Shown: one piece after another, positions 12,424 to 36,800 of the stretch
How the letters are laid out: the number at the start of each line of letters is the position of its first letter
Numbering within the stretch: the first letter of the stretch is position 1
Virus record (IMG/VR): IMGVR_UViG_3300008108_000178
Coordinates: 1-64,000 of that record
Source: a virus
DNA length: 64,000 nt
Direction: 5' to 3' (one strand)
Notes under the pieces: model-generated
Seen by the model: only the letters and a program-made list of their open reading frames with translations
Databases searched by the model: none
What the model was told of the DNA's origin: nothing
Made by a program: the position numbers and the translations under genes

Positions 12424-12618
12424 ATGCAGCTCGCATTTGTCACCCCAAAATCTAACAAAGCCAAAAACAGATTCTCTAATCTAATGGAGAAACATCCTGG
12501 CTGCATAGTAGAACAAATCAAAGGCAATCGGGTGTTTTTGAGATCACAAAATGATCGCAACTTTTTCTGGGTTGATATTAATAATGACAGCGATTGGGGA
12601 ATAGTTTTTAATACATAG
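12424..12618 (+). CDS. Small hypothetical protein, 64 aa
   Basis: The ATG frame starts MQLAFVTPKSNKAKNRF and contains two beta-type segments (GCIVEQIKGNRVFLRSQ, NFFWVDIN). Its stop overlaps the first unit of a 27-bp tandem repeat. The function is unknown. Confidence 0.65.
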   Translation: MQLAFVTPKSNKAKNRFSNLMEKHPGCIVEQIKGNRVFLRSQNDRNFFWVDINNDSDWGIVFNT

Positions 12619-12723
12619 CAAACGTTATGTATTTCTATCATTTAGCAAACGTTATGTATTAATAATACATAGCAAACACTATGTGATAGAAATACATAGC
12701 AAACGCTATGTGATTATTAACAA
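12616..12723. repeat. Four-copy 27-bp tandem repeat (iteron-like)
   Basis: The core TAGCAAAC recurs at 12616, 12643, 12670 and 12697, exactly 27 bp apart. Each copy forms a dyad around AAAC, best in the fourth (ACATAGC/GCTATGT). The changes in the right arm (GTTATGT, ACTATGT, GCTATGT) show divergence between copies. The array lies in the gap before the GP88-like gene. Iteron or operator function is inferred. Confidence 0.75.
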
Positions 12724-14112: not shown

Positions 14113-14385
14113 ATGTCTGTTTCTTTCAACATCAGCGATTCCATGCTTTATCGCCAGTTTAGTGTAGAAGAATCCTCCGCTATCTACTGCATTTCAGTGT
14201 TACATAACAACGTAACTGTTGCCTACCATAGCAACACTGAAAAACAGTACATTTTCAGGGCTAGCGATATTTTTGCCCCCGTCATTCGTGACGCCATTCG
14301 TCACTTTAACCCCGCCGAAATTAGCATCGGCAAGCTGATAGCCAAGGCACGTAAAGTAGGCGATCTGGAAATAATAAATATCTGA
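14113..14385 (+). CDS. KTSC-like protein, 90 aa
   Basis: The layout follows the protein at 9699: strands (YCISVLHNNVTVAYHS), a Tyr-containing strand (KQYIFRASDI), a helix, then EISIGKLIAKARKVGDLEII. The two are probably distant paralogues by this pattern. It is terminated at 14419. The function is unknown. Confidence 0.6.
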   Translation: MSVSFNISDSMLYRQFSVEESSAIYCISVLHNNVTVAYHSNTEKQYIFRASDIFAPVIRDAIRHFNPAEISIGKLIAKARKVGDLEIINI

Positions 14386-14394
14386 CACTTTCCT

Positions 14395-14410
14395 AGATAT
14401 AATTATATCT
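14395..14410. repeat. 16-bp palindrome
   Basis: AGATATAATTATATCT is a perfect palindrome between the preceding stop and the terminator. It may be an operator or part of an extended terminator structure. Confidence 0.55.
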
Positions 14411-14418
14411 AAGATCTT

Positions 14419-14447
14419 GAGGGTAATTATAATTACCCTCTTTTTTT
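14419..14447 (+). terminator. Intrinsic terminator
   Basis: A perfect 22-bp palindrome with arms GAGGGTAATTA and TAATTACCCTC is followed by seven T. Confidence 0.85.
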
Positions 14448-14474
14448 ATGTTTTGAAATAAAATATAATTTAAC

Positions 14475-14815
14475 GATTTGCAGAGTATTATTAATACATA
14501 ACATATACTAAGTATTAATAATACACAGTATATGCAGATTAATTAGAATCAACAATTAATCATATTTGCAGAATATTAATAATACATAGCATATACAATG
14601 TATTATTAATACATAACGATTGCAGATTATTAATAATACAATAAAATCGTAATTTCACAATAATTAGAATTAACAATAAATTACGATTTTATTGTATTAT
14701 TAATAACAATCAAATAGTATTGCAAAGTATTAATAATAACAGCTAATTACGATTGCAAAGTAATTATAATTAACAGTTAATCGTAATCGTTCGTTTATTA
14801 TAATAAACGATAAGC
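14475..14815. repeat. AT-rich repeat and palindrome block, no gene
   Basis: A non-coding stretch of about 340 bp is built from degenerate repeats. TGCAGA or TGCAAA occurs at about 14479, 14533, 14567, 14621, 14721 and 14754, each followed by an A/T palindromic segment. Between the fourth and fifth lies a perfect 29-bp inverted repeat (arms 14627-14655 and 14678-14706, 22-nt loop). An 18-bp palindrome (CGTTTATTATAATAAACG) closes the block at 14792-14809. It lies at the boundary between the structured region and the late genes. Confidence 0.7.
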
Positions 14816-14865
14816 GTCCCCAAAAAAGTACCTTCTTTCTAAGCTATAAACGTTTCCCAGAGCCC

Positions 14866-14873
14866 GATAAATA
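14866..14873 (+). promoter_or_regulatory. Candidate T4-type late promoter
   Basis: GATAAATA lies about 77 bp upstream of the gene at 14950. It resembles the T4 late -10 element TATAAATA and is the first such element before the structural genes. Confidence 0.5.
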
Positions 14874-14949
14874 TTAAAAGGAATTTCCAAAGTGAAATCC
14901 CCCGATTCCAAAAAAATTTCCCAGAAAATTTTTCGCTAAAAAAGTCGCC

Positions 14950-15162
14950 ATGAAACAACGAGTAACTTACAAGACCAAGGATGGTTCGTTGAGAGAACAA
15001 GTATTTGATGATTTCAATGAATTCGCAGATCTCATCCAAGACGCCGCCATGGACTACTATGCTGGTGGGCAACCTGAGATGAGCGTAGAGACAATGTATG
15101 ACAATATGGTAAAGAAGGAGAAAGTAACAAATAATGAACCAAGACCTGAACTCCTTGATTGA
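14950..15162 (+). CDS. Small hypothetical protein, 70 aa
   Basis: It starts MKQRVTYKTKDGSLREQ after an AT-rich leader. The helical middle (FDDFNEFADLIQDAAMDYY) resembles short cyanophage proteins. It overlaps the next gene by 29 nt. The function is unknown. Confidence 0.65.
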   Translation: MKQRVTYKTKDGSLREQVFDDFNEFADLIQDAAMDYYAGGQPEMSVETMYDNMVKKEKVTNNEPRPELLD

Positions 15163-15300: not shown

Positions 15301-15675
15301 ATGCCATTACTTGTCGGACCAGAGACCCCTGACACCACATCGGTGAATGGTCCTTGCACGTATCCAGCAAAACCAGTAACAGGAGCACAGGTATCCCCGA
15401 ATATATTCATTAATGGGGAACCTGTGAAGTTTTTACATAATGCTATAGCACCAGATAGTGTAACAGGTGTTCCGAATAATCCGTTAGTACCGTGTGTTAT
15501 TCCAGAAGCTGCGAGGGTAGTAGTAACAAGTGTGAATACTTCAGTATTTTTTAACAATCTACTACCTGCTGTGCAAGGGGACGCCACGGAACTCACATCC
15601 TTCCCTGGGACGAAGCGAGTATTCGTCGCACCATTTCAGCATCCGACTGTGATTATTGGTGGAGGGGTTGCGTGA
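15301..15675 (+). CDS. PAAR-like baseplate spike-tip candidate, 124 aa
   Basis: The protein is small, beta-rich and glycine/proline/valine-dominated: NIFINGEPVKFLHNAI in the first half, VVVTSVNTSVFFNN in the middle and FVAPFQHPTVIIGGGVA at the end. The rhythm of strand-Asn-Gly-x-Pro-strand resembles PAAR proteins that cap the tail spike (T4 gp5.4 role), and it sits just upstream of the baseplate genes. Histidines that could bind the tip metal are present (H46, H114), but I cannot align them reliably. An unrelated small structural protein is the alternative. Confidence 0.5.
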   Translation: MPLLVGPETPDTTSVNGPCTYPAKPVTGAQVSPNIFINGEPVKFLHNAIAPDSVTGVPNNPLVPCVIPEAARVVVTSVNTSVFFNNLLPAVQGDATELTSFPGTKRVFVAPFQHPTVIIGGGVA

Positions 15676-16180: not shown

Positions 16181-16582
16181 TTGTCTACTGTGCCGCAGTT
16201 TCAAACATTTAAGGATTTAAATGTGACATTCAAGCCTCATCCTATTACTGGTGATTTAATTACTAGTAAGGATGAGGCTGCTGTTAAACAGGCCATTGTT
16301 AATCTTTTGTTAACTAACAAAGGTGAACGTTTATTCAATTCTCAGATTGGATCAGATATTCCTAGATTATTATTTGAACAATTAGATTATGGTGTAGCAG
16401 CCCTGGTCCAATCTGAGATTAAAAACGTATTAACGGATTACGAACCTAGAATTAATATTATATCGTTAGAAGTTATACCAAATTTTGATGATAATGGATT
16501 TGATGTTGGATTGGAATTTGAGATTATAGGTAGAAACGATATTCCACTCAACGTAGAATTCTTTTTAGAGAGAACTCGATAA
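16181..16582 (+). CDS. 25: Baseplate wedge subunit gp25
   Basis: gp25 is the lysozyme-like (GPW/gp25 family) subunit at the inner end of the baseplate wedge, touching gp6 and the sheath. The length is typical (130-134 aa). Conserved parts include VTFKPHPITGDLIT, AIVNLLLTNKGERLFN and the C-terminal FEIIGRNDIPLNVEFFLER. The start is unusual: no ATG exists, and the choices are TTG at 16181 or GTG at 16190 (giving MPQFQTFKDL). No clear ribosome-binding site precedes either. The gp6 gene follows without a gap. Confidence 0.9.
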   Translation: MSTVPQFQTFKDLNVTFKPHPITGDLITSKDEAAVKQAIVNLLLTNKGERLFNSQIGSDIPRLLFEQLDYGVAALVQSEIKNVLTDYEPRINIISLEVIPNFDDNGFDVGLEFEIIGRNDIPLNVEFFLERTR

Positions 16583-18376
16583 ATGCCATACACACAAGTA
16601 TCAAATTTAGATTATAATGATATAAAAATTGCTTTAAAGGAATATTTAAGATCCCAATCAGATTTCACTGATTATGATTTTGAAGGTTCTGTGTGGAGCA
16701 CATTACTTGATGTGTTAGCGTATAATACTTATTATACAGCATTCAATACTAATCTAGTTGTTAACGAGTTATTCTTAGATTCAGCAACCCTAAGAGATAA
16801 TGTAGTTGCAATCGCCAAACAACTAGGTTATGTACCAAAATCAGTAACGTCACCCGTAGCTTATATTAGTTTTGATGTTAATTTCACTAATACAACCCCT
16901 GATGTTGCTATTTTAAGGACTGGATCTGCATTTACGACTATTTTTGATTCTGAACTATATCAATATACGACATTAGATGATGTTTCTGCTGCAGTAGAGA
17001 ATGGGACAGCATCATTCATTAATGTACCAATCTACGAAGGTTCATTAATTAAAAATTCATACACTGTTAATACTTCTCTTAAGTCACAACGATTTTTGAT
17101 TCAAAATCAAGGTGTTGATGCTAGTAGTGTTAGAGTAAGGGTATATCCTTCTCAGAATTCATCTGCTTATGAAATTTATGAAAGAGCAGAAAATATCTTA
17201 GAAGTAAACTCCGAAACTAAATCATATTTCTTAAATGAAGTTGAAGATGAGAATTATGAGATTTTCTTTGGTGATGGAGTATTAGGTAAAAAGCTAGAAA
17301 GTGGTCAATTTATTGAAGTTAGCTATCTAGTAACTAATGGTCCTGCTACAAATGGAGCAAAGACCTTTGTGTTCAATGGTATTATCGATGATAGAAATAA
17401 TTCATCTTATCCATTGAGTGTAGTTGTAACTTCTGTATTAGCAGCTTCTGGTGGAGAGGACATTGAAAGCATTGACAAAATTAAATACAATGCCCCTAGG
17501 TATTTCGGTACACAAGACCGTGCAGTGACCTCACAGGACTACGCAGCCATCGTTAGGAACGTTTATCCAGCAGTAGCGGATATCATTACTTTTGGTGGAG
17601 AAGAAGCAAGTCCACCTGAATATGGAAAAGTAAAGATTGTAATCAAACCTTCCAATGCAAATTTACTTTCTTCATTTACCAAACAAGATATTATAAGAAA
17701 ATTAAAGCCTTTTATGGTTGGATCTGTCACTGCAGACATTATTGATCCATCAATTCTATTTGTTGAATTAACAAGTAAAATTTATTTTGATAGAACTAAG
17801 ACAAACTTACCACCAACAGAGATTGTAAAGAAAGTAAGAACTTCTATTCAACAATATATTGATCAATCAGATACTGAAAAATTCAACGGTAAGTTTAGGT
17901 ATAGTAGATTTATTGGAGTAATTGATGATTCGGATAGATCAATTAATTCTAATCAAACTACAGTAATGATGAGAAAGGATTTCTATCCTGCTATTAATTC
18001 TTCATTTTTTTATGAGGTTTGCTTCCAAAATACTTTTGACAAAGATTGTGAAGGTCCAACATTACATTCTACTGGATTTAAAGTAACAGAATTCCCTAAT
18101 TATACAGTGTATTTGGAAGATAGGGATGGTAGAATCGTCCTATATAGAATAGATGATTTAACTGGACTAAAAATAGTTTTAAATGACTCCATTGGAGCAA
18201 TAAACTATGATAAAGGTGAAGTTATGTTGTATGATTTAACTATCATCCGTGGTTCGTTTGAAGACAACCGAATTGAACTAAGAGTAAAGCCTTTAAGCAA
18301 TGATATTAATGCGGTAAGAGAGGTTTTCCTAGACGTTGATATGACAACAAGTAAGTTCACTGCTTATCCCGAGTAG
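16583..18376 (+). CDS. 6: Baseplate wedge subunit gp6
   Basis: At 597 aa it fits the gp6/J-like baseplate wedge family, which forms the continuous inner ring of the baseplate. It starts at the ATG immediately after gp25. Family-typical stretches include DYDFEGSVWSTLLDVLAYN near the N-terminus, AKQLGYVPKSVTSPVAYI, and the central APRYFGTQDRAVTSQDYAAI followed by FGGEEASPPEYGKVKIVI. The C-terminal domain (about residues 480-597) is beta-rich. In T4, gp6 assembles with gp7, gp10, gp8, gp53 and gp25. Confidence 0.9.
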   Translation: MPYTQVSNLDYNDIKIALKEYLRSQSDFTDYDFEGSVWSTLLDVLAYNTYYTAFNTNLVVNELFLDSATLRDNVVAIAKQLGYVPKSVTSPVAYISFDVNFTNTTPDVAILRTGSAFTTIFDSELYQYTTLDDVSAAVENGTASFINVPIYEGSLIKNSYTVNTSLKSQRFLIQNQGVDASSVRVRVYPSQNSSAYEIYERAENILEVNSETKSYFLNEVEDENYEIFFGDGVLGKKLESGQFIEVSYLVTNGPATNGAKTFVFNGIIDDRNNSSYPLSVVVTSVLAASGGEDIESIDKIKYNAPRYFGTQDRAVTSQDYAAIVRNVYPAVADIITFGGEEASPPEYGKVKIVIKPSNANLLSSFTKQDIIRKLKPFMVGSVTADIIDPSILFVELTSKIYFDRTKTNLPPTEIVKKVRTSIQQYIDQSDTEKFNGKFRYSRFIGVIDDSDRSINSNQTTVMMRKDFYPAINSSFFYEVCFQNTFDKDCEGPTLHSTGFKVTEFPNYTVYLEDRDGRIVLYRIDDLTGLKIVLNDSIGAINYDKGEVMLYDLTIIRGSFEDNRIELRVKPLSNDINAVREVFLDVDMTTSKFTAYPE

Positions 18377-18381
18377 ATTAA

Positions 18382-21300
18382 ATGGCTGCAAAGACAAGAA
18401 ATATCTCTACCTTAATTGAATCTCAACTACCTGGGTTTATAGTTTCTGAATACGAAAACTTCTCCAAGTTTGTAGAGAAATACTATGAACAACTAGAAAT
18501 ACAAGGTCAACCACTTGACATTATTTCTAATGTTACGAAGTATCGTGACATCAATTATTACGAGAAGAATTTACTCAATCAATTTACAAAGTTATCTTCT
18601 AGTATTGTAGAAACTGATACGACTATTACAGTAGAAGATGCTACTTCATTTCCAGAGCAGAATGGTTATATCAAAATTGGTAATGAAATTTGCTTCTATA
18701 AGGAAAGAACTGATACTGAGTTTTTAGAAGTTTCTAGAGGTGTAAGTGGAAATACCACTTTAGGAGATTTGTACGAAACTTCTAATTTTGTAACCACTCA
18801 AGCAGAACCACACTACACAAATGATACTGTATATAATGTAAGTAATCTATTTTTGTATGCTTTTGTAAAAAGCTTTGAATCGCAGTATCTTGGTGGATTT
18901 CCAGAAGCATATTTAAAAGGTGATGTAGATAAGCGTGTACTTATCAAAAATATTAGTGACTTTTATAAGGCAAAGGGCACTAATAAGTCAATTAAATTTA
19001 TTTTTAACTCTATTGTTTCTAAGAGTGCCGAAGATACTCCAGAAACATATAACCCAAAGGATTTTACTTTAAAATCTTCAACTTCTGATTGGGTAAGTAA
19101 TTATTCAATTAAAGCAAAGATATTAACTGGTGATGTCAATAAACTAGTTGGAACTAAAATAACACAAAGAACGGAAAATTCTTTTGCATCTGCTGTTATT
19201 GATGCTGTAAACTATGGTGGTTCCGATGGAGTATTTGAAATAATTTTATCTCCAGGATCTGTTAATGGCAATTTTAAAATTGCAGCTCAAACAACATTAC
19301 GTAAAGATATTTTAGTTGATAATACTACAGGTGATAGAATTGATGTATATTCAACATTAGGATGGGATCAAAAAGGAGAATTAATTATAAATTCGGAAAG
19401 AATTTCGTTTACGAACAAAAATGTCAACCAATTTATAATTTCTGGTAGATCAAACCCAAACACTACCCATGTTGCTGGAACGCCTGTCTATAGTAATGAT
19501 ACTTTAATTGCAACATATGAAGGTGGCTCAGCAACAATGCTTGCTCTTGGTGTTTTATATAATTTAAATGTAGTCAATGGAAAGCCATATTCAAATTCTG
19601 GAGATAAAGTACAAATTTCAGAATCTGGATTTGAAAGTAATCATCCTGTCATTCAAGCTAATTGGTTTTTAAATACCAATTTCAGAAAAGCATTTTCTCC
19701 ACTAAATGCTCAAGTAGCTCAGGCAATTTCTGATTTAAATTCTGATGTATCTGCAATTTATGAAGATGATCAGTATTTTTATATTTGTTCTTCTGGATAT
19801 CCTCATCATGGAATACTGAAGGAATCTTCACCAGTTAATTTAGAAGATCAGAAATTTTTAAAATTAGTAAGAAAGAATCCAATTAATACTACAGAAGTAT
19901 ATCCAATATCAAATAGAGATGTTGGTATATTGAAAGATGGCTCGGTAGTATATGGCAATAAAGATTTTGAAACAGTTAAGTTTGGAGAAATAATTTCAGT
20001 AAATGTTGAAAATAAAGGAGTTGGTTACAAAAATCCTCCGTTTGTTTTAATTAATAATGAACCTTACAAAGCTAGATGTTTTCTTGCGGGTGAGGTGGTA
20101 GATTTTGTAGAAATTTTATCAGACGATATTTACGAAGAAGAGCCAATTATCACTATTACATCTGGAAGAAATGCAAAATTAAAACCAGTTGTAACAAATG
20201 GAGAAATTACTAGTATTAGAGTAGAAAATCCTGGAGAATATTATTCTTCTCCTCCAACAATTAGAATTTTTGATGCTTTGGGTAAAGGAGCATTTGCTGA
20301 ATATGAGGCTATTGTTTCTCCAGAAGGTCAAATAACAAGATGCAAAAAAATAAGCGGTGGTCGTTTTTATAATAGAAATAGTTTAGTTGTAGAGGTATTG
20401 CCAGCTGGTTCTGGTGCTTTTGCTTCTGCAAAAATTAGAGAGTGGACAAAAGATAGATTTAAAAAATATCGTTTAGAGTTAGATTCAAATAATTCATATG
20501 TATTTTCCAACTTCAATCCAAAAATTGGATTAGGATATGGAGTAGTTGCAAATCCAGCAAATTTAAGATTTAGATCTAACGATAATATTAACAGCGTTTT
20601 AGGGGAAAATCCTGGAACTAAAACTCATTCTCCAATTTTAGGATTTGCTTATGACGGAAATCCAATTTATGGACCTTATGGATTTTCTGATCCTGGAAAT
20701 GCAAATTCCACTGTGGTTAGAATTAATAGTGGATATCAATTAAACACATCAAGGCAAAATGGACCCTCAATTACTGAATATGAATTAGGAACTTTTGTTG
20801 ATGATTATGTTTGGGTTCCATCTGTTAATAGTGGGAAAACTGAATTAGATGAAAACAATGGGAGATTTTGTGTAACTCCAGAATATCCTAAAGGAACCTA
20901 TGCATACTTTGTAACTATAAATTCTTCTGGACAACCAGTATATCCATATATTATTGGAAAAAATTTCTATTCTTTACCAGTAGATTCAAATTATAACTCA
21001 AATATTTCTCAAGATGATTTACCAAAAAATCTAAAACGTTTAAAAACTAGCGATATCGATAACAATGGCGTAAATTCATTTGCGTTAATTGGTGATACTA
21101 CAAAAGGTAATATCAATGGAGCATATTCTGATTATTCAATAGAAACATTTTCAGTTGGTTCTGAATTATTCATTGATAATTTAGGCACAGGTGGTGCTGG
21201 AGCAAAGGCATTTGTTTCTTCGGTTAATGGCAAAAATACAACAGTATTAGAATCAGTAGACGAAAAAGCATTAGTTATTGATTTGGTGCAAAACGCTTAT

Positions 21301-24300
21301 CTTTTTGAGGGAGATACCCTTTTCCAAGGTGATGGTGTTTTATTAACGCAAATTATTGTAGATAATACAGAAATAAATGATTTCCAATCTTCAGAATCTC
21401 CAAATGTAAAAGTTGTTAATGATTTATCAGTTGGTCCAGATGGATCATTTAGAGTTATTCAAGATTTATCAGCAGATTTAACACAAGGCGAAATTATTGG
21501 TGATGTCGTAAATGATAGTAGAGTTGTATTAAGATCAGTACAAAATACATTTGATCCATCTTTACCTGTATTTGCTACAATTAAAGTTTTAAATCTTTTA
21601 TTAAACAAAAATGGTACTTACACAAAAGATTCTATAATATCATTTATTAGAGAAGATGATGGTATTGTATTTGGAACTGGTTTAGTATTAGAAGGATCAT
21701 TAAAACAAAATTCTTTAAAGGTTAGGATAATTACTGGAGATATTTTTGCATCGGAAGATTTTATTATAAAAAGTAATGTATTATCAGATACTTCAAGTGC
21801 AAAAATTATATCAACAACATCTCTTAGCGAAAATTTAACTATTACAAATATAAATGATAAAGTAGCAATATTACAAACAGATGAAGATCATAATTTAGCT
21901 AATGGCGATAAAGTATTTGTAAATATTTTTCCAGATGATTCTATCACAGAAACAACTTATTATGTAAGGAAACGACTTTATCAAAAAGCCGTTTTAGAAG
22001 AATTAAATTTCAATGGTAAAATAATTGATACTGGTATTGGTAGATTTGACGTATTAAATAGCGGAGCTGATTACGAAAGTGGTACTTACACTGATGTAGA
22101 ATTAATTTTTGTTGATTCCTCGAAAGCTAGAAAAAATATCGGCAAGCCTGGAGATCCAGGAAATGCTAGGGCAACAATTGAGGTATTTAATGTTGGTGGA
22201 GGATTTGGAAGAGTTTCTTCAATTACATTAACAAATAAAGGTTATGGTTATAGAAAATCAGATATTTTAACAGTTGCTGATGAAGACTTAAATCGTCTTG
22301 TTGCTTCAACTAGAACAGCTAGATTAAATTTATTTGTTGATCATTCTGGATTTTCTGCTGAAAATACTCAGTTGAAATTAACTACTGTAAATGATTTATC
22401 AAATGGCGATTATCTAAATATTGGAAATGAAATTGTAAAAATTACTTCAGTTAATAAAACAAATAAAACTGTTTTATTAGAAAGAGGTCAGAAAAACACC
22501 ACCGCATCTGATCATTTTAATGATCAATTAGTAACATTCCAAGAAACATCATATAAATTAAATACAAATTATAGAATTTTAGGAGATGGATTAAATTCTC
22601 CATATGTTGTTTCGTACAACCCAACAACTAGAGAATTAGTTGTTGCGTATGAATATAATGTAACTAATCCGACAAAAATATTACAAAGTAGTATTTTCTT
22701 CGATCAAAATAATCCAAGTAAGTTTGTAAAAGTTGAGTCTGTACAAGAGCCAGAGTATAAGTTAGAATTTAGCAAAAATCAACTTAATTTTGATATCAAC
22801 CCAACTATAGAAATACAAAAATACTACAAGTATAAGTTTGATACTAGCCACCCATCAATGCTAGATACATATCTAGATTTTTCATCTAGTTTAAATTATA
22901 ATTTATTTACAGAAGAAAAAAATGTAAGCTCAAATTTACCAGGAACTGCAGGATCTTTTGTATCAATAAAACTTGGTTTTGGACCAAATATTTCTTCAAA
23001 CACATACGAAGAAATATCACCAGTAAACTTCAATAATTATTATTATTTTATTAAAGCTTCTGCAAATGTTAATACAGATGGATCTTCCTTGAAAGTTATT
23101 GATGATCCTCTTTCTGGTGAACACACTGTAATATACTCAACAAATAGAAAATTTGTTTATAATGTAAGAACATTACCTCAATATGATGGATCTGGTGCTA
23201 TTTCATATACAACTACTTCGCAATTTGCTATTGGATCTATTTCTAATATTTCCATTAATGATACAGGAAATAATTACGAGCTACTTCCTATTTGCAGAGG
23301 AATTATTCCATCTCCATTAAATATTGCTACTGTTTCAGCAACCATAGATTTAACAACTGGTTATCTTTCATCAATTGTTGTAACTGAGCAAGGAAATAAT
23401 TATTCAAAGCCAATTGCTATTATTACAGATGGTGATGGAATTGATTATAAACTAGAATGTATATCAGAAAATGGTAAGCTAAAAGCAGTTAATATATTAA
23501 ATTCTGGTAAAGGATTTACATATAACCCAACAATCAAAATATTTGAATCTGATATTAAAGTATTTTTAACATCAGATAATATTGGAATACCAAAAAATAT
23601 AAAATTAATAAACAGTGGATATGGTTATAATTCAGATTATTCGACAATTCCTACATATAAATCAACTTCAACATTTGTATTAAAGAATTTTGAAGATGAT
23701 TCTTTCTATGCTGGAGAAAAAATTGCTCAATATGAAAATAATATTTTGATAGCAGAAGCTGTAGTAGCTAAAAATGGATGGAGAATTGGAAGTAATTTAT
23801 TAAAAGTCGAAAATATAAAGGGAATATTTAAAAATAATCTACCAATTAAAGGTTTTGCAAGATCTAAAACTGCATTATTAATATCACAATTAGATACAAC
23901 ATTTTTACCTGATATTAGAACATATTCAGACAACGTTGGTAGATTTAATTCGGAAAGAGGAAAGTTAAGTTCAAATTCCCAAAAACTAACAGATTCTTAT
24001 TTTTATCAAGACTACTCATATGTAATTAAATCAAGAACTCCTATAGATTTTTGGCGTGATTTAATCAAAGAAACAACACACCCAGCAGGTTTTCAGCTTT
24101 TTGGTGAGTTAATAGTTGAATCTGAAGGCAATACTTCAATGCCTTCTGAAATAAAAGAAATTGAAACTCACTCATTTATAAATTTAAAACCACAAAATAT
24201 CTCAGTTGTCAATACTAGAAAATATATTACAGAAAATATTGTATCTTTTGCAGATAGCAATATAGAAAGAGGTATAGGATCTGTTGCAATTGATACTTTT

Positions 24301-27300
24301 GATTCTTCAGAAACTGTAGCAAGAGAATTGATTCTAGCTAGACCATTTGATGGGGATTTTGATCCAAATAGTGGAATTCTTTATGGTACTAAAACTTTCA
24401 CTCTTTTAGATAAAAAAACAAATAGTGCATACGCACCATACAATGAAAGTTCATTAATTATAACAATTGATGGAGTTTTACAAGAGCCAGGAAAATCATT
24501 TACTATCAAAGGTAATAAAATAACTTTTGCTCAGCCTCCTTTAGGAGAAAGATTAGCGGAAGGTCAAGTAGTAGAAGCTCAGAAGTTTTATTGTAGAGCA
24601 ATTAAGTTCAAAGATAATACACTGAATTCCACATATATCAGAAAAATGCAAAATATTTCTGATCAATTTGATGGAGAAACAAGAATATTTGATTTATATG
24701 AAGAAAATGGTTCTATTGTAAAAACATTACCAAATGAAAAATTAATTGTTGCATTGAATGGAGTTTTACAAAATGCAAGAACTACAGAAGAAGAGCCTTT
24801 TGAAAATTCATATGCAATTATAAGATCTCAAGATCCTACAGTAACTGATAAAATTGCCTTCACAGAACCACCAATAAGTCACGGTGAACTATATGATAGT
24901 ACTGATGATATTGTAATAAGAGAAAAGTGTTTTATTTACAGTATTGGTTCATATAGAAGATTAAGTATTGATTCTAGAACTGTAAAATACAGAGGAGCTG
25001 GTCCTTTCTTAATTTTAGATGAGGTACAGAATTCTGTTGTCAAAGTTGATGATCCTTTATACGCAATAGTTTTCATAGATGGTGTATTACAAATACCTGG
25101 GAAATCTTATGATATTGTAGGACCAAATATAACTTTCTCATCTCCTCTACAATACTACGAAGATGAAACAGGCAAACAAGTATTGCAAAAAGTTTCTATC
25201 TTATTATTCTACGGTAGAGATAAAGCAAAAACTTTAACTTTCTATGATTTTGAACCTAATGCATATTATTCCCAAGCAAATTTAGTAATAACTGGTTCGC
25301 CCGATGTACAAAATTTTTATGCTTGGTTTGCAAATTATTTGGGATCCAACGTAATAGTTTCTCAAAATGGAAATAAAATTGGTAAAATAAAATCGTTTGT
25401 TCCTGGAAGCAATGATTTAAACTTAACTTTGCTATGCTCAGCTTTTTATGAAATAGATTCTTCTGATTTAATATTTATAAATCCAGAATCTGGAGATAGT
25501 TTTGTGTTATCTGGCATTGAATCTTCTTCAATTTCATACTTAGAAGATGAAGATGGCGTGAGAAAATTACAAGTTGATGTTCCATCTTGGTTGCTCGGAA
25601 CAAAGCTTGGCAAAGATGCTTACTCGGAAAGAACAAAACTATATTCTAATTTGAATATTGGCGACTTAATTAAAATTGATGGCGAATCTGAGTTTAGAGA
25701 AATTGTATCAATTCCAGAATTAGTAAATACAAAACAGTACAATACTGGAGAATTTTTACCTAAGGATATTTACTCTAGAGTACAAGCAACTAATTATAAT
25801 GATATAGTTAGAGGAGAAGGTTTAAGTATAACAGCTGAAATTGACGCTAATGGTACTATAACAAAATTAAATTGGAATAGAAGAGATTTAATGCTTTTCT
25901 TTAATAATAATGTACTATTACAGCCAACCGCATATCAGTATTATACTGCACCTATAATTGATTTTATTCCAAGAACTCAAAATGGTGGTGGAGCAAGAGC
26001 AGAAGTAATTGCAATTGGTGGACAAATTGTAGATATTGTTTTAATTGATGGTGGCTATGGCTATTCAGAACCTCCTCAAGTAGTTATATCTAGAGGATAT
26101 AACAGAATTAAGGGAAGATCAAGAAAATTTGATACCACCACTATATTAAATGTTTCTCCACCAATAGCATTCTCAGATAGTTTAACTTCAAGTAGTGAAG
26201 TTACTTTAGTATCATATGGTCCTGCAGGTCAAGCTATTTTCTCTGTTATTAATTTAAGTGCTTTAGCAGGAGAATTAGATGTATCTAGAAATATTATTTC
26301 TATTATAACTCCAGAAGAAAAAATAGTTACATTTAGTAATCCAAAAGATATTACTCAAATTATTATACAGCCGCCAGTACCTAAACTAAAATCTGATATA
26401 ATAAGGACTTCTACTGCAATTCATAATTACATAGATGTTCCATTCGATATAGTTTCTTCTTCAACAATTACTTCAGTAAACAAAGAATTAACAACAATTA
26501 TTTCTAAACAAATTAATGAGGCATTTGTTCAATTAGACACTGCTTCTATTAATGATATTGGTGCATTCTTAGACGCTCCTTTATCAGAAACTGATAATAT
26601 TGTGTATGTTCCAGATACAATAAGATTCCCTGATTCAAGTAGATTATTAATTGGAAGAGAAATTGTTTATTATGAGAAAAAGAAAACAGATAGATTTTTA
26701 TCTGTTACTAGAGGAGCAGATGGAACTACAGCTCAAACACATAATGCAGGAGATTATCTAAGACATCTACCTAAGATTGTAAGTGTTGTTCCAGTTGGAG
26801 CAGCAATAATTCAATCTATTGTTTCTATCGAATCTGATCATGATACATTTACTGAATTATTAAAAACAGTAAGTACAGAAATAGTAGAGCCATCAATATC
26901 CCATGACTTAACTTCATTAACATCAAGTCAACAAATAGAACTTGATAATACGGAAGTTGATGTTATTCCTTGGATTGGTATTATTCCACCTCCTTCATAT
27001 AATGTAATTTCTACTGTATATTCAACATCATCTAGTGTACAAACTATTGTAGAATCGCTTAAAATAGATTCTTCTACTTCATCTGTAATAACAGTAAAAC
27101 AGTCCAATATTCAAATTTCTGTAGATCAGAATATTAATGTTGATGTTTCTACGTTAATAACCTCAGCTCAAATTATTTCCAATGCAGAATCTTCTGTAGA
27201 TTCTTTATTTGCAACAGTAATAACTTCTACACATAATGCATCTGAAATCATGCATGATGTGAATATATTATCAAATGCAACTATTGAAAATTATTCAACT

Positions 27301-28527
27301 AATTATATTTTACGAAATGAATCTTCTGTAGAAACTATAATTTCTACTATTAACACAATAGAAAATACAATAAATGAGATTTTAGTTATTCCTCCTACAT
27401 CATATTCTGAAGTAAGAAATTCTCATTCAATAACTAGAATTTTCTATGCTCAGATTCCTCCTTTATCGACTATTGCAGAATCTGTTGTTGTTTCTCCAAT
27501 AGAAACAACAATTGAATTAACAAATAATTTAAGTGTTGAAGTTGTTGATACCAAGAATACAATAATTTCTTCTCATATTGATGCTAGATACGAAAATACA
27601 TTTATATCAACACAATCTGCAAAAATTGTTTCCACAATTAAAGAAATTACTGATTTTGTAAGTTATGATATTAATTCTAGTTTAACAAGTTATTCATCGG
27701 CGGTAACTTCAACTAAGAATACAATTGAATCCACTACTACAGTAATTTCTAATTTTGTTGAGTATGATGTAACTCCAGTATCAATTCATGTATGTCCAAT
27801 AATTAATTCTTCTTATATTGCTTCTTCTAGCAATATTGTAGCTTCTGTAAATCCAAATTCTTCAGAAACTACAATAAGAATTGACACCTCTGCTGGCATT
27901 TCTGGAACATCAAGAAGAGAAATAGATTATAATACAGGAATTCTTGATTTCTTCACAGAATCTGTCGTATTACAAAATCCAATAAAAACTAGAAACCAAG
28001 GATTCCTTACATTGTTAGAACCAATAAATGTCATTACATCAAGAAATGGTTCTACTGTAGAAGTGTCTAATAAAAATGTAGAAAGAGATGCTTTCTATGA
28101 TGCTTATAATTTGGGGAATGCTGGATATACAATTACCGCATTTGAAAATAATGCTTTTATGAATACTGGAGCATTTGATGTATCAGGTTCTATTGAATCT
28201 ATAACATATGCTTATCCAAATTTAACATTGAATGATTTTACCCAAAGAAAATATTCTTCAATTACTTTAACTGGAGAATTTTTCAATTTAGCTATTCCAT
28301 CAATTAATGATATTGGATCTAGATTATCAACTAGTATTTCTAATACTTCATCAAGTATTACAATAAGTAATGCTTCAAAATTCCCAAGTAGTGGTAAAAT
28401 TTTAATTAATAAAGAAATTATAAGTTATACTACTAAAAATGGAAACACATTATCAGGATTAACTAGAGGTGTAGACAATACAATTCCAGCATCACATAGT
28501 TTGAATGACTACTTGAGGTCATTCTAA
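18382..28527 (+). CDS. Giant baseplate structural protein with YHYH domain (gp7-like position), 3381 aa
   Basis: It follows gp6, where T4 has gp7, but is about three times the T4 gp7 length. The N-terminus (LIESQLPGFIVSEYENFSKF, YEQLEIQGQPLDII) and a gp7-like helical start suggest wedge attachment. Around residues 745-765 it has a YHYH-domain core (GFAYDGNPIYGPYGF). A module of the form FP..G.I.IG.EI..Y......F..V.RG recurs near residues 76-133, 323-373, 1334-1385, 2727-2795 and 3310-3381. Glycine/tyrosine-proline repeats (KGVGYKNPPFVLI, GGYGYSEPPQVVI) are scattered. Residues about 2807-3167 form a Ser/Thr/Ile/Val-rich low-complexity segment. Codon use is extremely AT-rich. It is likely a wedge-plus-fibre protein; exact equivalence to gp7 is inferred. 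Confidence 0.75.
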   Translation: MAAKTRNISTLIESQLPGFIVSEYENFSKFVEKYYEQLEIQGQPLDIISNVTKYRDINYYEKNLLNQFTKLSSSIVETDTTITVEDATSFPEQNGYIKIGNEICFYKERTDTEFLEVSRGVSGNTTLGDLYETSNFVTTQAEPHYTNDTVYNVSNLFLYAFVKSFESQYLGGFPEAYLKGDVDKRVLIKNISDFYKAKGTNKSIKFIFNSIVSKSAEDTPETYNPKDFTLKSSTSDWVSNYSIKAKILTGDVNKLVGTKITQRTENSFASAVIDAVNYGGSDGVFEIILSPGSVNGNFKIAAQTTLRKDILVDNTTGDRIDVYSTLGWDQKGELIINSERISFTNKNVNQFIISGRSNPNTTHVAGTPVYSNDTLIATYEGGSATMLALGVLYNLNVVNGKPYSNSGDKVQISESGFESNHPVIQANWFLNTNFRKAFSPLNAQVAQAISDLNSDVSAIYEDDQYFYICSSGYPHHGILKESSPVNLEDQKFLKLVRKNPINTTEVYPISNRDVGILKDGSVVYGNKDFETVKFGEIISVNVENKGVGYKNPPFVLINNEPYKARCFLAGEVVDFVEILSDDIYEEEPIITITSGRNAKLKPVVTNGEITSIRVENPGEYYSSPPTIRIFDALGKGAFAEYEAIVSPEGQITRCKKISGGRFYNRNSLVVEVLPAGSGAFASAKIREWTKDRFKKYRLELDSNNSYVFSNFNPKIGLGYGVVANPANLRFRSNDNINSVLGENPGTKTHSPILGFAYDGNPIYGPYGFSDPGNANSTVVRINSGYQLNTSRQNGPSITEYELGTFVDDYVWVPSVNSGKTELDENNGRFCVTPEYPKGTYAYFVTINSSGQPVYPYIIGKNFYSLPVDSNYNSNISQDDLPKNLKRLKTSDIDNNGVNSFALIGDTTKGNINGAYSDYSIETFSVGSELFIDNLGTGGAGAKAFVSSVNGKNTTVLESVDEKALVIDLVQNAYLFEGDTLFQGDGVLLTQIIVDNTEINDFQSSESPNVKVVNDLSVGPDGSFRVIQDLSADLTQGEIIGDVVNDSRVVLRSVQNTFDPSLPVFATIKVLNLLLNKNGTYTKDSIISFIREDDGIVFGTGLVLEGSLKQNSLKVRIITGDIFASEDFIIKSNVLSDTSSAKIISTTSLSENLTITNINDKVAILQTDEDHNLANGDKVFVNIFPDDSITETTYYVRKRLYQKAVLEELNFNGKIIDTGIGRFDVLNSGADYESGTYTDVELIFVDSSKARKNIGKPGDPGNARATIEVFNVGGGFGRVSSITLTNKGYGYRKSDILTVADEDLNRLVASTRTARLNLFVDHSGFSAENTQLKLTTVNDLSNGDYLNIGNEIVKITSVNKTNKTVLLERGQKNTTASDHFNDQLVTFQETSYKLNTNYRILGDGLNSPYVVSYNPTTRELVVAYEYNVTNPTKILQSSIFFDQNNPSKFVKVESVQEPEYKLEFSKNQLNFDINPTIEIQKYYKYKFDTSHPSMLDTYLDFSSSLNYNLFTEEKNVSSNLPGTAGSFVSIKLGFGPNISSNTYEEISPVNFNNYYYFIKASANVNTDGSSLKVIDDPLSGEHTVIYSTNRKFVYNVRTLPQYDGSGAISYTTTSQFAIGSISNISINDTGNNYELLPICRGIIPSPLNIATVSATIDLTTGYLSSIVVTEQGNNYSKPIAIITDGDGIDYKLECISENGKLKAVNILNSGKGFTYNPTIKIFESDIKVFLTSDNIGIPKNIKLINSGYGYNSDYSTIPTYKSTSTFVLKNFEDDSFYAGEKIAQYENNILIAEAVVAKNGWRIGSNLLKVENIKGIFKNNLPIKGFARSKTALLISQLDTTFLPDIRTYSDNVGRFNSERGKLSSNSQKLTDSYFYQDYSYVIKSRTPIDFWRDLIKETTHPAGFQLFGELIVESEGNTSMPSEIKEIETHSFINLKPQNISVVNTRKYITENIVSFADSNIERGIGSVAIDTFDSSETVARELILARPFDGDFDPNSGILYGTKTFTLLDKKTNSAYAPYNESSLIITIDGVLQEPGKSFTIKGNKITFAQPPLGERLAEGQVVEAQKFYCRAIKFKDNTLNSTYIRKMQNISDQFDGETRIFDLYEENGSIVKTLPNEKLIVALNGVLQNARTTEEEPFENSYAIIRSQDPTVTDKIAFTEPPISHGELYDSTDDIVIREKCFIYSIGSYRRLSIDSRTVKYRGAGPFLILDEVQNSVVKVDDPLYAIVFIDGVLQIPGKSYDIVGPNITFSSPLQYYEDETGKQVLQKVSILLFYGRDKAKTLTFYDFEPNAYYSQANLVITGSPDVQNFYAWFANYLGSNVIVSQNGNKIGKIKSFVPGSNDLNLTLLCSAFYEIDSSDLIFINPESGDSFVLSGIESSSISYLEDEDGVRKLQVDVPSWLLGTKLGKDAYSERTKLYSNLNIGDLIKIDGESEFREIVSIPELVNTKQYNTGEFLPKDIYSRVQATNYNDIVRGEGLSITAEIDANGTITKLNWNRRDLMLFFNNNVLLQPTAYQYYTAPIIDFIPRTQNGGGARAEVIAIGGQIVDIVLIDGGYGYSEPPQVVISRGYNRIKGRSRKFDTTTILNVSPPIAFSDSLTSSSEVTLVSYGPAGQAIFSVINLSALAGELDVSRNIISIITPEEKIVTFSNPKDITQIIIQPPVPKLKSDIIRTSTAIHNYIDVPFDIVSSSTITSVNKELTTIISKQINEAFVQLDTASINDIGAFLDAPLSETDNIVYVPDTIRFPDSSRLLIGREIVYYEKKKTDRFLSVTRGADGTTAQTHNAGDYLRHLPKIVSVVPVGAAIIQSIVSIESDHDTFTELLKTVSTEIVEPSISHDLTSLTSSQQIELDNTEVDVIPWIGIIPPPSYNVISTVYSTSSSVQTIVESLKIDSSTSSVITVKQSNIQISVDQNINVDVSTLITSAQIISNAESSVDSLFATVITSTHNASEIMHDVNILSNATIENYSTNYILRNESSVETIISTINTIENTINEILVIPPTSYSEVRNSHSITRIFYAQIPPLSTIAESVVVSPIETTIELTNNLSVEVVDTKNTIISSHIDARYENTFISTQSAKIVSTIKEITDFVSYDINSSLTSYSSAVTSTKNTIESTTTVISNFVEYDVTPVSIHVCPIINSSYIASSSNIVASVNPNSSETTIRIDTSAGISGTSRREIDYNTGILDFFTESVVLQNPIKTRNQGFLTLLEPINVITSRNGSTVEVSNKNVERDAFYDAYNLGNAGYTITAFENNAFMNTGAFDVSGSIESITYAYPNLTLNDFTQRKYSSITLTGEFFNLAIPSINDIGSRLSTSISNTSSSITISNASKFPSSGKILINKEIISYTTKNGNTLSGLTRGVDNTIPASHSLNDYLRSF

Positions 28528-30818: not shown

Positions 30819-33800
30819 GTGGTAGGTGGTATTAATACTCCATTGTTGGTAGTGGGAACAGATGGTAGTGTTTTACCTACTACAATTTCTGTATACAATC
30901 CCGAAACACAAGAAACTACCTCATTGACTAGTCCAGCAATGGGATATGCTACCGCATTAAAAGTAGAAGAAGGTATCTATTTCGTAAACGGTTATTTTGT
31001 AAGAAACCAAGAACAACTTTTAATTGTTGACAAATATTATGATAAGCCATCTGCAAAAATTGGATTTAACATTATTGAAGATATTATAACTCCAGAAGAA
31101 GATGCATCTCTTTACGACAATGCTAGAGGGTTTTCAAACTACTCTGCTCCTGGAGCACATAGATTAAAACTTTCTCTTGATCTCAAGAAATATGGATATG
31201 AACAATTAACTGATAAAAATTTCATACAGTTAATTAAAATTAAAAATGGTATTGTAGAAAAGCAAGTAAGACCAGCAGATTATACATTACTAGAAGAAAC
31301 ACTAGCAAGGAGAACTTTTGATGAATCTGGTGATTATGTAGTAAAAGATTTTTCAGTAGATATTAGAGAGTACTACCAAAAAAACAACAACGGAGGTATT
31401 TTCAAATTATCTGCGAATGGATTAGTAAATAATATTTCAGAAGAACAAGCATCTAAAAAATTACTTGCAAGTATTGGACCTGGCAAAGCATATGTGCGTG
31501 GTTTTGAAATAGTAAATAAAGAAACCAAGTATTTAGAAATCGATAAAGCAAGAGATACTTTAACAAGAGATAATGTAACTATTAAATCCAAAGGCTCTTC
31601 TACATTTAAAATTTCTAACGTATTTGGTAGTGTACCTCTTAATAATGTTGCAGGAGATTTGACAGCTTACCCAGATGTTTATTTGAGCTGTGTATTTAAT
31701 GATGGTTCAATTGGGTTAAATGGTCAAGAAGAAGATGATTATTTTAAACTCACAAAATCTAGAAGAGCACAAACATTTACATTAAAAGATGGTATAAAAA
31801 CAATTTATGTTCAAGTTGCTGATAATTTACCAGCTTCAAGAAATGAATATCCATCTACTTTATGGTATGTAAAAACTCGTAGTGGTGGAGAACCTTCTTC
31901 CGTTGGTTCAGTTGATGTTTTAGCTGGGTCTATTTGCAAAAGAAATGATGTTTCTACTGCTGCTGGACAATTTTATGTAGAATTTACTATTACTGGAGAT
32001 AAATCAGTATTAGATACATATTTTCTTGAGTACGATGATGGAGGAGCTGGTAAGCTACGACTACTGTACGAAACAGAAGCAGATGCTCTAGCAGGTGCTG
32101 CTACTTATTATGGCAGGATAGTTGATTATAACAATACAATTACTCCAGTAATTGGAATTACAAAGCCAAAGAATTTTACTCTTTCTGATAGAGCATTAGG
32201 TTTTAATCCAGATACAGACATTGTTGTTTCCAAAGGAAGGAGTGGTATAAATTCAAGACCATATAGTGGTATTTTTAATTTTTCTTATTTTAATCCAATT
32301 TTCTTCACAAAACTTACATTAGAAGAATCCCCATCTATTGGATTTGATATTGGAAAATATATTACAGGAAAAACTAGCAATGCATATGGAGTAATTGAAT
32401 CTGATACTACAGAAAATTATAGCAGTGGCAATACTTTATTTGTTACCGTTCTTTCTGGAGAATTTATTTCAGGAGAAACTATTTCTGACGAAGATGGAAA
32501 TAGTTTAAAAATTGCAACAGATAACACAATTTCACATTTCATTGTCACTAATCGTGGCAATGGATATACCACAGATGTCAAATTAATTATTGATGGTGAT
32601 GAAGTTAATTCTACTAAAGTAAATCCAGAATTAATTGGAGGATCTATTTACAAAATTGATATTAATGATAAGAATGCATTAAGAAAAGAATATGCAGCTC
32701 CGCCTATAGTGACTGCATCCCCTCAGCCAGATTCTCAAGAAAATTACGCAACGATTGTCCCAGTATTATATAAAAATACTGTTTTAATTTATAATCCACA
32801 AAATGTAAAATCAATATATTCTAACTACAATAATTACGTATTTACGGCAGATATTGATTTTACAAAAACAGAATATTCTGCATACAAGCAAATTACTAAC
32901 TTTACTTTCTCTGGAAAGAAAGGAGATCGTTATATTGAATGCAATGGTTTTGGAGCAAATTTATCTAAAGATTTAATTCAAGGTGATATTATTCAATTTA
33001 CTGATGAAGTTAATCAAGTAATTAAAAATATTGTTCAATATACTTCCGACGCTCAAGGTGTATTCAAGTCAAGAATTTATTTAGACTATAGTTTACCAAA
33101 TGATATTGTAAATGCAAGCGTAGTTAGAATTAGACCAAATATTGAAAATGTTACTTCATCTTTAGTTTATCCAACAGGAAGCAAGCAAGTTGCTTCTTTA
33201 GTAAAAGATACTTCAGATACAAAAATCAAATGCTATATTAGAAAAGATTTCACTACAGATCTTTCTTCTAGCGGTGGTACTCTAACTTTTACTGCTCAAC
33301 TAGCTACAGGATTTCAAAGATTTGTTTCATATTCAGAAAATTCTTTTGTCCTAACAGTTTTAGATAAAGGAGGTTCGACCGCAGTAAACACTGGAGATAT
33401 TGTTTATATTCCAGAAGAATATATATCAATTAATAATCCATCAACAGATTCAACTGGGATTACAACTGGTTCTGCTGTGATTACACTACCAGATAACTAT
33501 TTTGGTTCTGGTTTAACTAATTATCCTAAATTGAAATTAACTGCTACTGTAGAAATTGATAAAGCTAAGCCAAGGTTAAAGACTTCAATTACTAATAAAA
33601 GAATTGTTGTTAGCTCAAGTGGCGATAAAGTTATTCCATTACGTGGTATTGATTACGATGGAGAAAATATCGAAGTTTATTCATATTCTGATGCATACAA
33701 ATTAAGATATGTTTATGAAGGTACATCAACTACACCACCAGACGTTGATGCAAGTGGACAATTAATTAGTGGCACAGATATTACATACAAATTTACATTC

Positions 33801-36800
33801 GATGATGGTCAACGAGATACTTTATATGATGTCTCTAGAATCGTTCTCAAGCCAGGATTTGATGCTCCTAATGGACAATTAGTTATTGCATTTGATTATT
33901 TTGAACACTCACAAGGAGATTTTTGTACGGTAGATTCATATTTACATGAAGCAGGAGTACCTGCAGAAGAAATTCCATCATTTAATTCTGCATTAAATGG
34001 AATTGTTTCACTAAAAGATGTAATTGATTTTAGACCAAAAGTAGATTCTAATACTACTATTACGGGATTCCAAGATGTTTCTATTTTAGCAAATCCAGAA
34101 GGTAAGAGCTATGTAAACTTCGTTGGAGATGGAGGAGTAATTTCATCAACACCAGCATCAGATAAAAATCTTGAGTATACTATTTCATTTAGCGAAACGC
34201 AATACTTAGATCGTATTGATGGAATTTTCTTAAATAAAAAAGGAGAGTTTATTGTAAAGCAAGGCAATTCTTCAATGAATCCTTCTAAGCCAGATAATGT
34301 AGATGATGCAATTGCTATTTGCTATATTCATATTCCATCATTTACTATTACTAGCAAAGATGTACGAATTGTTCCAGTAGACAATCGTAGATATACTATG
34401 CGTGACATTGGAAAATTGGAGAAGCGCATTGAACGTCTCGAATACTACACAACTTTAAGTATTCTTGAACAACAAGCACTCAACATGCAAATTAAGGATG
34501 AGATTGGATTAGATAGATTTAAGAGTGGCTTTATTGTAGATAATTTTGAATCGCATGGCATCGGTAATATCAAATCATCGGATTACAGATGTTCTATAGA
34601 TACTCAGCAAGCTGTTTTACGTCCACAGGTCAAAGAAAATAGTCTTAATCTAGTTGAGATTAACACTAGAGATGATCAACGTTCTATTGCTGGATATACA
34701 AAATCAAATAATATTGTAACATTACCATTTAGATCAATAAAAGTTCTTGGCAATGAATACGCAACCAAGACTATAAATCCAAATCCATTTGTGGTTATTC
34801 AATATGTTGGAGATTGTTCCATATCTCCAGTTATCGACCAGTGGTATGATACTTCTATTGCTCCATTGGCAATAAACAATAATACAAGTCATTTTACTAT
34901 TTTCCAAGCAAAAGATGATGTAAAAGAATCACTATCTAGTATATTCAATTCATTTGTTATTAATTGGGTTGGAACAAATGCTTCATTTTTAAATATAAAT
35001 TCGTTTGCTTCTGTTGCTAGCGAAACTACAAATTCTTCGGTTCAACAAGCGTCTATTGCAAGTTCTTCTAATGTTAATCCACAAAATAATGAAATTGGAA
35101 AAGGTATTAATTCAAAGACAGTAAACAACAATAGTGTCGCATCATCATTGCAGTTTTTTGCTAGATCTATTCCTATTAAATTTAAGGTTCAACGATTAAA
35201 AGCTAATACAAATTTAAATGTTTATGTTGATGGTAGAAATATTAATCGTTGGGTAGTTCCTGATGCAATTTTTACTGGAGTAGCAGGTAATTCTTTATCT
35301 ACTTTTAATTCTTCATTAGTAACAGATGAAAATGGAAATTTAAGTGGAGTTGTTTTATTCCCAGCTGGTTATCCACCAATTGAAAACTCAAGATGGACTG
35401 GAAATGTAAATACTGTTTCTTATGATGAAGGTTCTGAAGAAATTAGATTTACCGCTGGAGAAAAAACAATTACGTTTGCATCTTCATCTGAATACTCAGA
35501 TAAATTATCTTCAGATACTTATGCTGAAATTAAGTTTTATTCTTCTGGAATTATTCCAGAAAATCCACCTTCAGTAATTTCAACTTCTGCTGCTTATTTC
35601 AAAGCTAATGAAGGAGTTCAGTTAGTCAATAGCAATACAGATCAAGAATCAAAACCAAATCCATTAGCACAAACATTTAAAATTGAAAATTTTGCTGGTG
35701 GTATGTTTACTACTGGGGTTGATTTGTTCTTTAATAAAAAAGATAATGTAGTACCAATTAGAGTATATTTAACTAATATTGATACAGGAAAACCTGGAAA
35801 ATATATTATTCCTGGATCAGAATCTGTAATGTATCCAGAAACTTATTTAAAAGTTTACCTTACTGGCGATTCCGATACAATTTCAATTAAGAAAGGTGAA
35901 TTTGTAAAAGGTAAAAATTCAAATGCAACTGGTCCAGTTTTAAAAGTATTTGATAAAAATAATATTTTAGTTGGAGACGAAAATTCTGTTCAATTCCAAC
36001 TAAACAAAGAGCAAGTTTATACACTTGTTTTAAGTAATAATAATGGTGTTTCATTTTTACAAAATGAACCATTAGAAATTGCATCAATTACTGAATTTAA
36101 TAATACTAGAAATAAAAGTGCAGTTTTAACAATTGCAAAAGATTCTGGAAAAGTAATTGATTTGAAAGTAACTAATGTAGGAGATAATTATGAAAGTGCT
36201 ACTATTGTAATTGAAAGCCCTCAACTTCCAGGAGGAAGTACTGCAACTGGTACAGTTAGCGTTTCTGAATTTAAAATTTATAATGCAGAAATTTCATTAA
36301 ATGGTCGTGGTTATACAGAAGCTCCTTCAGTTGTAGTTAAAGGAGTTGGTAGTGGTGCAGGGGAAGCTAAGATAGAATCGGTAATTGAAATAGATACCCC
36401 AGCTGTAAGGATGGGAATTGCTACCGATGAATTTAGTGAAACTAAATCTATAGTGCCAACTAGATTTAACTTTAAGCACCCAGTATATTTGCAAAATAAT
36501 TCAGAATATGCCTTAACTATAGAAACAGATTCTATCAACTATGAAATTTGGTCCTCTAGATTAGGAGAGACTGAAATTGCAACAAGCACTACAGTTAATT
36601 CACAACCACTACTAGGTTCTGTTTATAAATCACAAAATACTGATAACTGGACAGAAGATTTATTTGAAGATATTAAATTTACTTTATATAGAGCAGAATT
36701 TGATATTTCAAGGCCAGCTGAATTATTATTAACTAATAGTAATTTAGGATATGAATTATTAGATTCAAATCCATTTGAAACTAGTGTTAGATCTTCTACT

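Follow-up and report, generated by a model that had tools for sequence, protein, structure and literature searches.

A lineage-specific dyad array beside an invariant element at the early/late junction of a T4-like cyanophage: a candidate control region of the late baseplate operon

The late promoter of T4-like cyanophages is described by the motif NATAAATA, and early as well as late promoters have been reported in S-PM2, Syn9 and RB49 (PMC2984593). Cyanomyoviruses lack MotA, and in T4-like cyanophages, which possess neither MotA nor AsiA, the passage from early to late expression and the start of replication are unsettled (PMC2984593); a predicted theta origin in Syn9 is attributed by the same source to Weigele 2007. 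In T4 itself oriE carries 12-nt direct repeats, and oriF and oriG need a promoter together with an AT-rich unwinding element (PMC3016281). Promoter-stem-loop (PeSL) cassettes have moreover been proposed for T4-like phages (PMC4503421).

The DNA considered here (the window, 64,000 nt) belongs to an IMG/VR virus fragment with a record length of 64,766 bp, and comes from a T4-like cyanophage (Kyanoviridae), which infects marine cyanobacteria. Among named phages the closest are T4-like phages of Synechococcus, with Sf-FR1 in first place at 71% identity across gp25/gp6; neither a tRNA/tmRNA search nor a search of a plasmid collection returned a match. Up to 14.4 kb the ORFs are small and probably represent early genes, while farther downstream a PAAR-like ORF, gp25 and gp6 are followed by very large ORFs (Table 1). 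An earlier note on this DNA had placed a repeat block exactly where early-type genes give way to late structural genes, a position borne out by the small ORFs and terminator on its upstream side and by the late-promoter motif, PAAR-like ORF and baseplate genes on the other. Its statement that about 340 bp hold no gene is true, and the gene-free DNA is wider, extending over about 565 bp between a stop codon at 14385 and an ATG at 14950. The late region includes three ORFs of unusual size (18382-28527, 30819-38405 and 42961-51591, encoding 3381, 2528 and 2876 aa, respectively), the first of which corresponds in position to a YHYH domain-containing protein in Sf-FR1.

Table 1. Features of the junction, in window positions (strand as reported; a dot marks features without orientation)
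Feature	Positions	Strand	Remarks
Last small ORF upstream	14113..14385	+	90 aa; PHROG 4357 (unknown function); homologue of SfFR1_66
Hairpin GAGGGTAATTATAATTACCCTC plus T-run, resembling an intrinsic terminator, at the end of the upstream gene set	14419..14448	+	hairpin at 14419-14440
Array of degenerate modules of about 34 bp and about 27 bp	14475..14790	+	box AACARTTAATTACGATTGCAAAG alternating with AT dyads GTATTAATAATAC, TAATTATAATTA, TAATTAGAATTA
Left arm of perfect 29-bp inverted repeat	14627..14655	.	
Right arm of perfect 29-bp inverted repeat	14678..14706	.	
Best-preserved box copy AACAGCTAATTACGATTGCAAAG	14738..14760	+	profile score 29.4
Box of the terminal module, AACAGTTAAT	14772..14781	+	conserved in AT-array relatives
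Terminal perfect 20-bp palindrome TCGTTTATTATAATAAACGA	14791..14810	.	contains TATAAT (14799-14804), 17 nt past the AACAGTTAAT box
Invariant element, 45 nt, AAAAAAGTACCTTCTTTCTAAGCTATAAACGTTTCCCAGAGCCC	14822..14866	+	22-nt core CTAAGCTATAAACGTTTCCCAG at 14839-14860
T4-type late promoter motif GATAAATA	14866..14873	+	consensus NATAAATA; 28 nt past core start
First ORF past the invariant element	14950..15162	+	homologue of SfFR1_67
PAAR-like ORF	15301..15675	+	Pfam PAAR_motif E = 0.004, below curated cut-off; PHROG 11361
gp25, baseplate wedge	16181..16582	+	
gp6, baseplate wedge	16583..18376	+	

The block has an AT content of 80%; the most AT-rich 341-bp stretch of the window starts at 14441 and its least stable 340-bp duplex at 14398. 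The six TGCARA heads that had been noticed in it start at 14479, 14533, 14567, 14621, 14721 and 14754 (spacings 54, 34, 54, 100 and 33), against about 0.45 expected per 341 bp from the 84 occurrences on the + strand of the 64 kb. The perfect 29-bp inverted repeat with its 22-nt gap was likewise recovered. The longest arm reached 13 in 60 dinucleotide shuffles of the block and 22 in 60 shuffles of its own 11-mers; both this repeat and the self-complementarity of the block are far above shuffles. The palindrome described as closing the block is there too, with a length of 20 bp rather than 18. Folding gave z = -10.3 as DNA and -10.4 as RNA relative to dinucleotide shuffles, which break the repeat modules, so that a palindromic tandem array scores high by construction. 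Independent contigs have homologous arrays at the same place, which makes an assembly artefact unlikely.

The spacings of the heads are explained by modules of 34 and 27 nt (54 = 2 x 27, 34, 100 = about 3 x 33, and 33), and the claim that each head is followed by a different AT palindrome corresponds to AT dyads of differing sequence lying between the boxes (GTATTAATAATAC, TAATTATAATTA, TTAATTAGAATTAA and others). The box profile (AACARTTAATTACGATTGCAAAG) matched 131 sites in 12 arrays compared with 1.4 in shuffles; this 23-nt profile drifted on iteration to a general AAT-N4-ATT dyad, and the per-site counts span both dyad types. Boxes are spaced by 17, 34, 61 (34+27), 88 (34+27+27) and 95 (34+34+27) nt, and in most relatives the autocorrelation peaks at 33-34 nt with a 17-nt half-period. 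Matches scoring at least 19 are found at this locus only, in the window as in Sf-FR1. The terminal module joins the AACAGTTAAT box, possibly a -35-like or activator site, to the closing palindrome, and the arrangement AACAGTTAAT-N17-TATAAT occurs in the window and in nine of 15 aligned relatives, TATAAT being lost in the other six. Because the layout of box and dyad and the length of the array modules equal those of this module, which adjoins the invariant element, the array looks like the outcome of its repeated duplication. A sigma-70 scan of the array returned six promoter-like sites against 6.0 in shuffles, i.e., at chance, and a reading of the modules as plain sigma-70 promoters, with -35/-10 pairs above chance, was abandoned. 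Elsewhere in the window, at 12599-12720, a small intergenic hairpin cluster with TACATAGCAAACGCTATGTGAT units and TATTAATAATA joints resembles the array modules of two related loci (L016 and L023), and is followed by a GTGGACA..TGTCCAC hairpin.

The array ends at a nearly invariant 22-nt core within a 45-nt element, which the earlier note had overlooked. The element recurs in 34 IMG/VR contigs (29-nt pattern), 28 phage records and 86 stretches (22-nt core), and the isolates that bear it include Sf-FR1, S-PM2, P-RSM6 and S-CAM1; none of the isolates found carries a long AT array. In five complete or long relatives the core is present once per genome with at most two mismatches, S-CAM7 among them having a second, weaker match, while no good match to the element was obtained in S-SM1 or in the first 50 kb of Syn9; in S-SM1 a gp5-like gene occupies its place. 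Wherever gp25 was found (48 loci) it is encoded downstream of the element and on its strand, at a median of 1.8 kb, and in 32 of 60 loci (C/A)TAAATA stands exactly 28 nt past the core start. In the window a NATAAATA-like motif precedes the late structural genes, as expected of a late promoter. Positions 5 and 9 of the core covary almost perfectly, with CTAAGCTATAAA (G..T) in 30 loci, CTAACCTACAAA (C..C) in 29 and a mixed G..C in one (S-H9-1 type), which could reflect lineage or co-variation with a recognising protein. L236 and similar loci lack the NATAAATA motif and show, about 12 nt farther on, TGCTATAAT, of the extended -10 type. About 50 nt past the core, at 14910-14930 and in relatives, a second conserved stretch, AAAAAAATTTCCCAGAAAATTTTT, repeats the TTTCCCAG of the core. 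The open-access literature searched reports the late-promoter motif and an overlap of early with late promoters in cyanomyoviruses, and contained no description of either the element or the array, which is not proof of novelty.

Along the sequence the terminator is followed by the array, then by the terminal dyad, the invariant element, the late promoter and the operon. We give about even odds (a probability of roughly 0.5) to the reading that the block is the promoter or control region of the late baseplate operon, fast-evolving and made of lineage-specific, reiterated protein-binding dyads. It would be the variable upstream half, built of repeats, of a control region from which the late baseplate/tail operon starts, its units being promoter-proximal modules (AACAGTTAAT-N17-dyad with TATAAT) reiterated between the terminator and the element. 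The dyads may serve as repeated sites for a dimeric DNA-binding protein, of host or phage, and/or as weak sigma-70-like promoters, and cooperative binding on the 17/34-bp ladder could determine when, or how strongly, the late genes are transcribed from the element. In that case the 29-bp inverted repeat would have arisen incidentally, through templated repair or the copying of modules in inverted orientation, and would not be required for function. Anatomy, conservation and module turnover can be read off the sequences compared, and from them we infer protein binding and transcription.

Relatives were retrieved through gp25, the upstream ORF and the invariant element, and about a dozen related contigs have homologous arrays, 200 to about 1,100 nt long, at the same intergenic place. 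The pattern TTGCARANTATTAATAATA hit 22 loci in IMG/VR, with multiple copies in only two, both cyanophages with the element; the other 20, all single-copy, are probable chance matches. A serious rival to the control region, in our opinion possible but on the unlikely side, is a non-adaptive array at a recombination hot spot, in which template switching and unequal exchange multiply palindromic modules within a tolerant intergenic gap and function resides only in the adjacent element, a PeSL-like behaviour. Several observations fit this explanation. The alignment of L016 with L023 comprises 855 identical and 42 substituted columns and long indels of 61 and 122 nt, which are module lengths, and on this comparison gains and losses involve entire modules. 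Most lineages lack the array and others have one of different sequence, and long inverted repeats form afresh from genome to genome: the 29-bp repeat is private to the window, and other arrays have their own, of differing sequence (28 bp in L023, 25 in L137, 21 in L016 and 17 in L145), the tendency to form them being general among the arrays compared. Between L016 and L023 seven dyad centres are flipped (TATTAATAATA/TATTATTAATA), and about 20 changed paired columns include two double changes, against 0.2-0.3 expected under random placement; RNA covariation had been considered for this pair and was dropped, as two double changes are too few to argue from. The resemblance of the terminator and promoter-like unit to the proposed PeSL cassettes points in the same direction.

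Sequence identities at the junction likewise fit the non-adaptive explanation. The arrays of two relatives are 93-97% identical, against about 60-70% for their gp25/gp6; for L016 vs. L023 the figure for gp25/gp6 is about 58-77%, and the array plus about 1.3 kb downstream is mostly 81-97% identical. Because array and downstream DNA are far more identical than gp25/gp6, the early/late junction is, on these identities, a place of exchange between lineages, and a link with recombination is to this extent favoured, the earlier note having offered a recombination-dependent replication site as one possible role of the block. Between L041 and L046, at around 1.3-2 kb past the element, identity drops sharply (about 95% to about 65%), which marks a recent breakpoint of exchange close to gp25.

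A non-adaptive array is harder to reconcile with the constant 33-34-bp phase and the conserved non-palindromic box across relatives, and with the confinement of arrays to the side of the element rather than their scattering, the small related cluster at 12599-12720 being the exception. The double changes at many pairs of the terminal dyad also speak against it: in 15 sequences 87% of the cells are paired, double changes affect five of nine pairs, and none of 500 shuffles was as good. This shows that the symmetry of the terminal dyad is maintained; dyad-templated repair could also yield it, and double changes in dyads can arise by template switching without selection. Conservation of paired arms through compensatory changes, which had been put forward as a check on the block, gives a divided outcome: the 29-bp arms have no orthologue, and it is in the terminal palindrome that pairing is kept.

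The relation between array and element was compared over 62 distinct loci, each with at least 420 nt upstream, taking z > 5 as strong repeats. Strong upstream repeats accompany the element in 19 loci and are weak or absent (z <= 5) in 43, where the intergenic DNA often measures just 50-80 nt. In at least one other clade (L125/L127/L130) unrelated dyad repeats, CTAAGTNACACNTAG, lie upstream of the element, with six sites in a 192-kb record, at most one mismatch each and all within 270 nt upstream of it. Given that most loci have no array and another clade has other dyads, a constant element with lineage-specific dyad arrays is, among these loci, the general pattern, and the many loci with an element and no array imply that the array is not essential for late transcription.

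These counts bear as well on a replication origin, which we regard as doubtful, and in which the AT-rich array would be a duplex-unwinding region with iteron-like repeats and the element plus promoter an R-loop or initiator site, as in T4 oriE/oriF. The block does rank with the most AT-rich and the least stable stretches of the window, its repeats are iterated and evenly spaced (33-34/17-nt periodicity) in the manner of oriE, the element is single-copy at a fixed locus, and there is loose synteny with oriE, upstream of 5.4 (PAAR) and gene 6. Nonetheless, repeats of the oriE type would be present family-wide at the locus, and here they are strong in less than a third of the loci, most of the others leaving little intergenic room; this distribution speaks against a universal origin. 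No turn at the element is seen in the cumulative GC skew of the three complete relatives Sf-FR1, S-PM2 and P-RSM6, which is monotone and uninformative, and the unwinding element of T4 oriF/oriG lies downstream of the promoter, whereas the AT-rich stretch here lies upstream. The oriE analogy is weaker than it appears, as the T4 repeats are part of the coding sequence of gene 5, of whose product they are inferred to encode a beta-helix, and the oriE iterons were accordingly downgraded as a parallel. In the T4 75-86 kb region (L186, 5420-5545) the repeats near oriE (GTTGAAGGTAATG and similar) look like coding repeats, and their location in gene 5 questions their reading as replication iterons.

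That the array or the element acts as a structured or small RNA (riboregulator, sRNA or leader) is very improbable, for the strong predicted folding that favours it (array z -10.4, arrays of most relatives z -2.3 to -11.5) is opposed by the lack of an Rfam match in the window, an invariant element unstructured as RNA (z +0.9), the position of the array after the terminator, a fold not homologous among relatives, and perfect dyads with 0-1 nt between arms, which fit duplex DNA.

On a wider and rather speculative view, one undescribed cis element would act in many Kyanoviridae as master switch, perhaps as origin, at the early/late junction, and lineages would have independently grown unrelated dyad arrays beside it, a situation that, if true, would be like the fast-turnover co-evolution of binding sites and initiators. 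A single-copy, nearly invariant element at a fixed position, next to a fast-evolving array, offers in any case a short and concrete piece of DNA on which to address questions of promoter, protein binding and origin.

Compared with the described systems, the locus shares with plasmid iteron origins tandem sites phased at about three helical turns, and differs from them in that no initiator gene was found, the dyad cores vary and the array is dispensable in the family. Like T4 oriE (PMC3016281) it has evenly spaced repeats upstream of a PAAR/gene 6 baseplate module, in loose synteny, whereas the T4 repeats are 12-nt and intragenic and those described here are 34/27-bp dyads in non-coding DNA; repEA and repEB were not identified here. 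As in the R-loop origins oriF and oriG, a promoter adjoins an AT-rich, easily melted stretch, unlike them on the upstream side and in cyanomyoviruses, which are without MotA (PMC2984593). The terminator stem-loop and promoter-like unit at a mosaic junction recall the PeSL cassettes of T4-like phages, whose near-identical copies are dispersed between genes, whereas here the modules are in tandem and high-scoring boxes occur at one locus only. With the late or dual promoter regions of cyanophages the locus has in common a late motif before structural genes, a sigma-70-like -10 nearby and a terminator in front; it is set apart from them by an invariant 22-nt core at a fixed distance upstream of the late motif and by a lineage-specific array of dyad modules.
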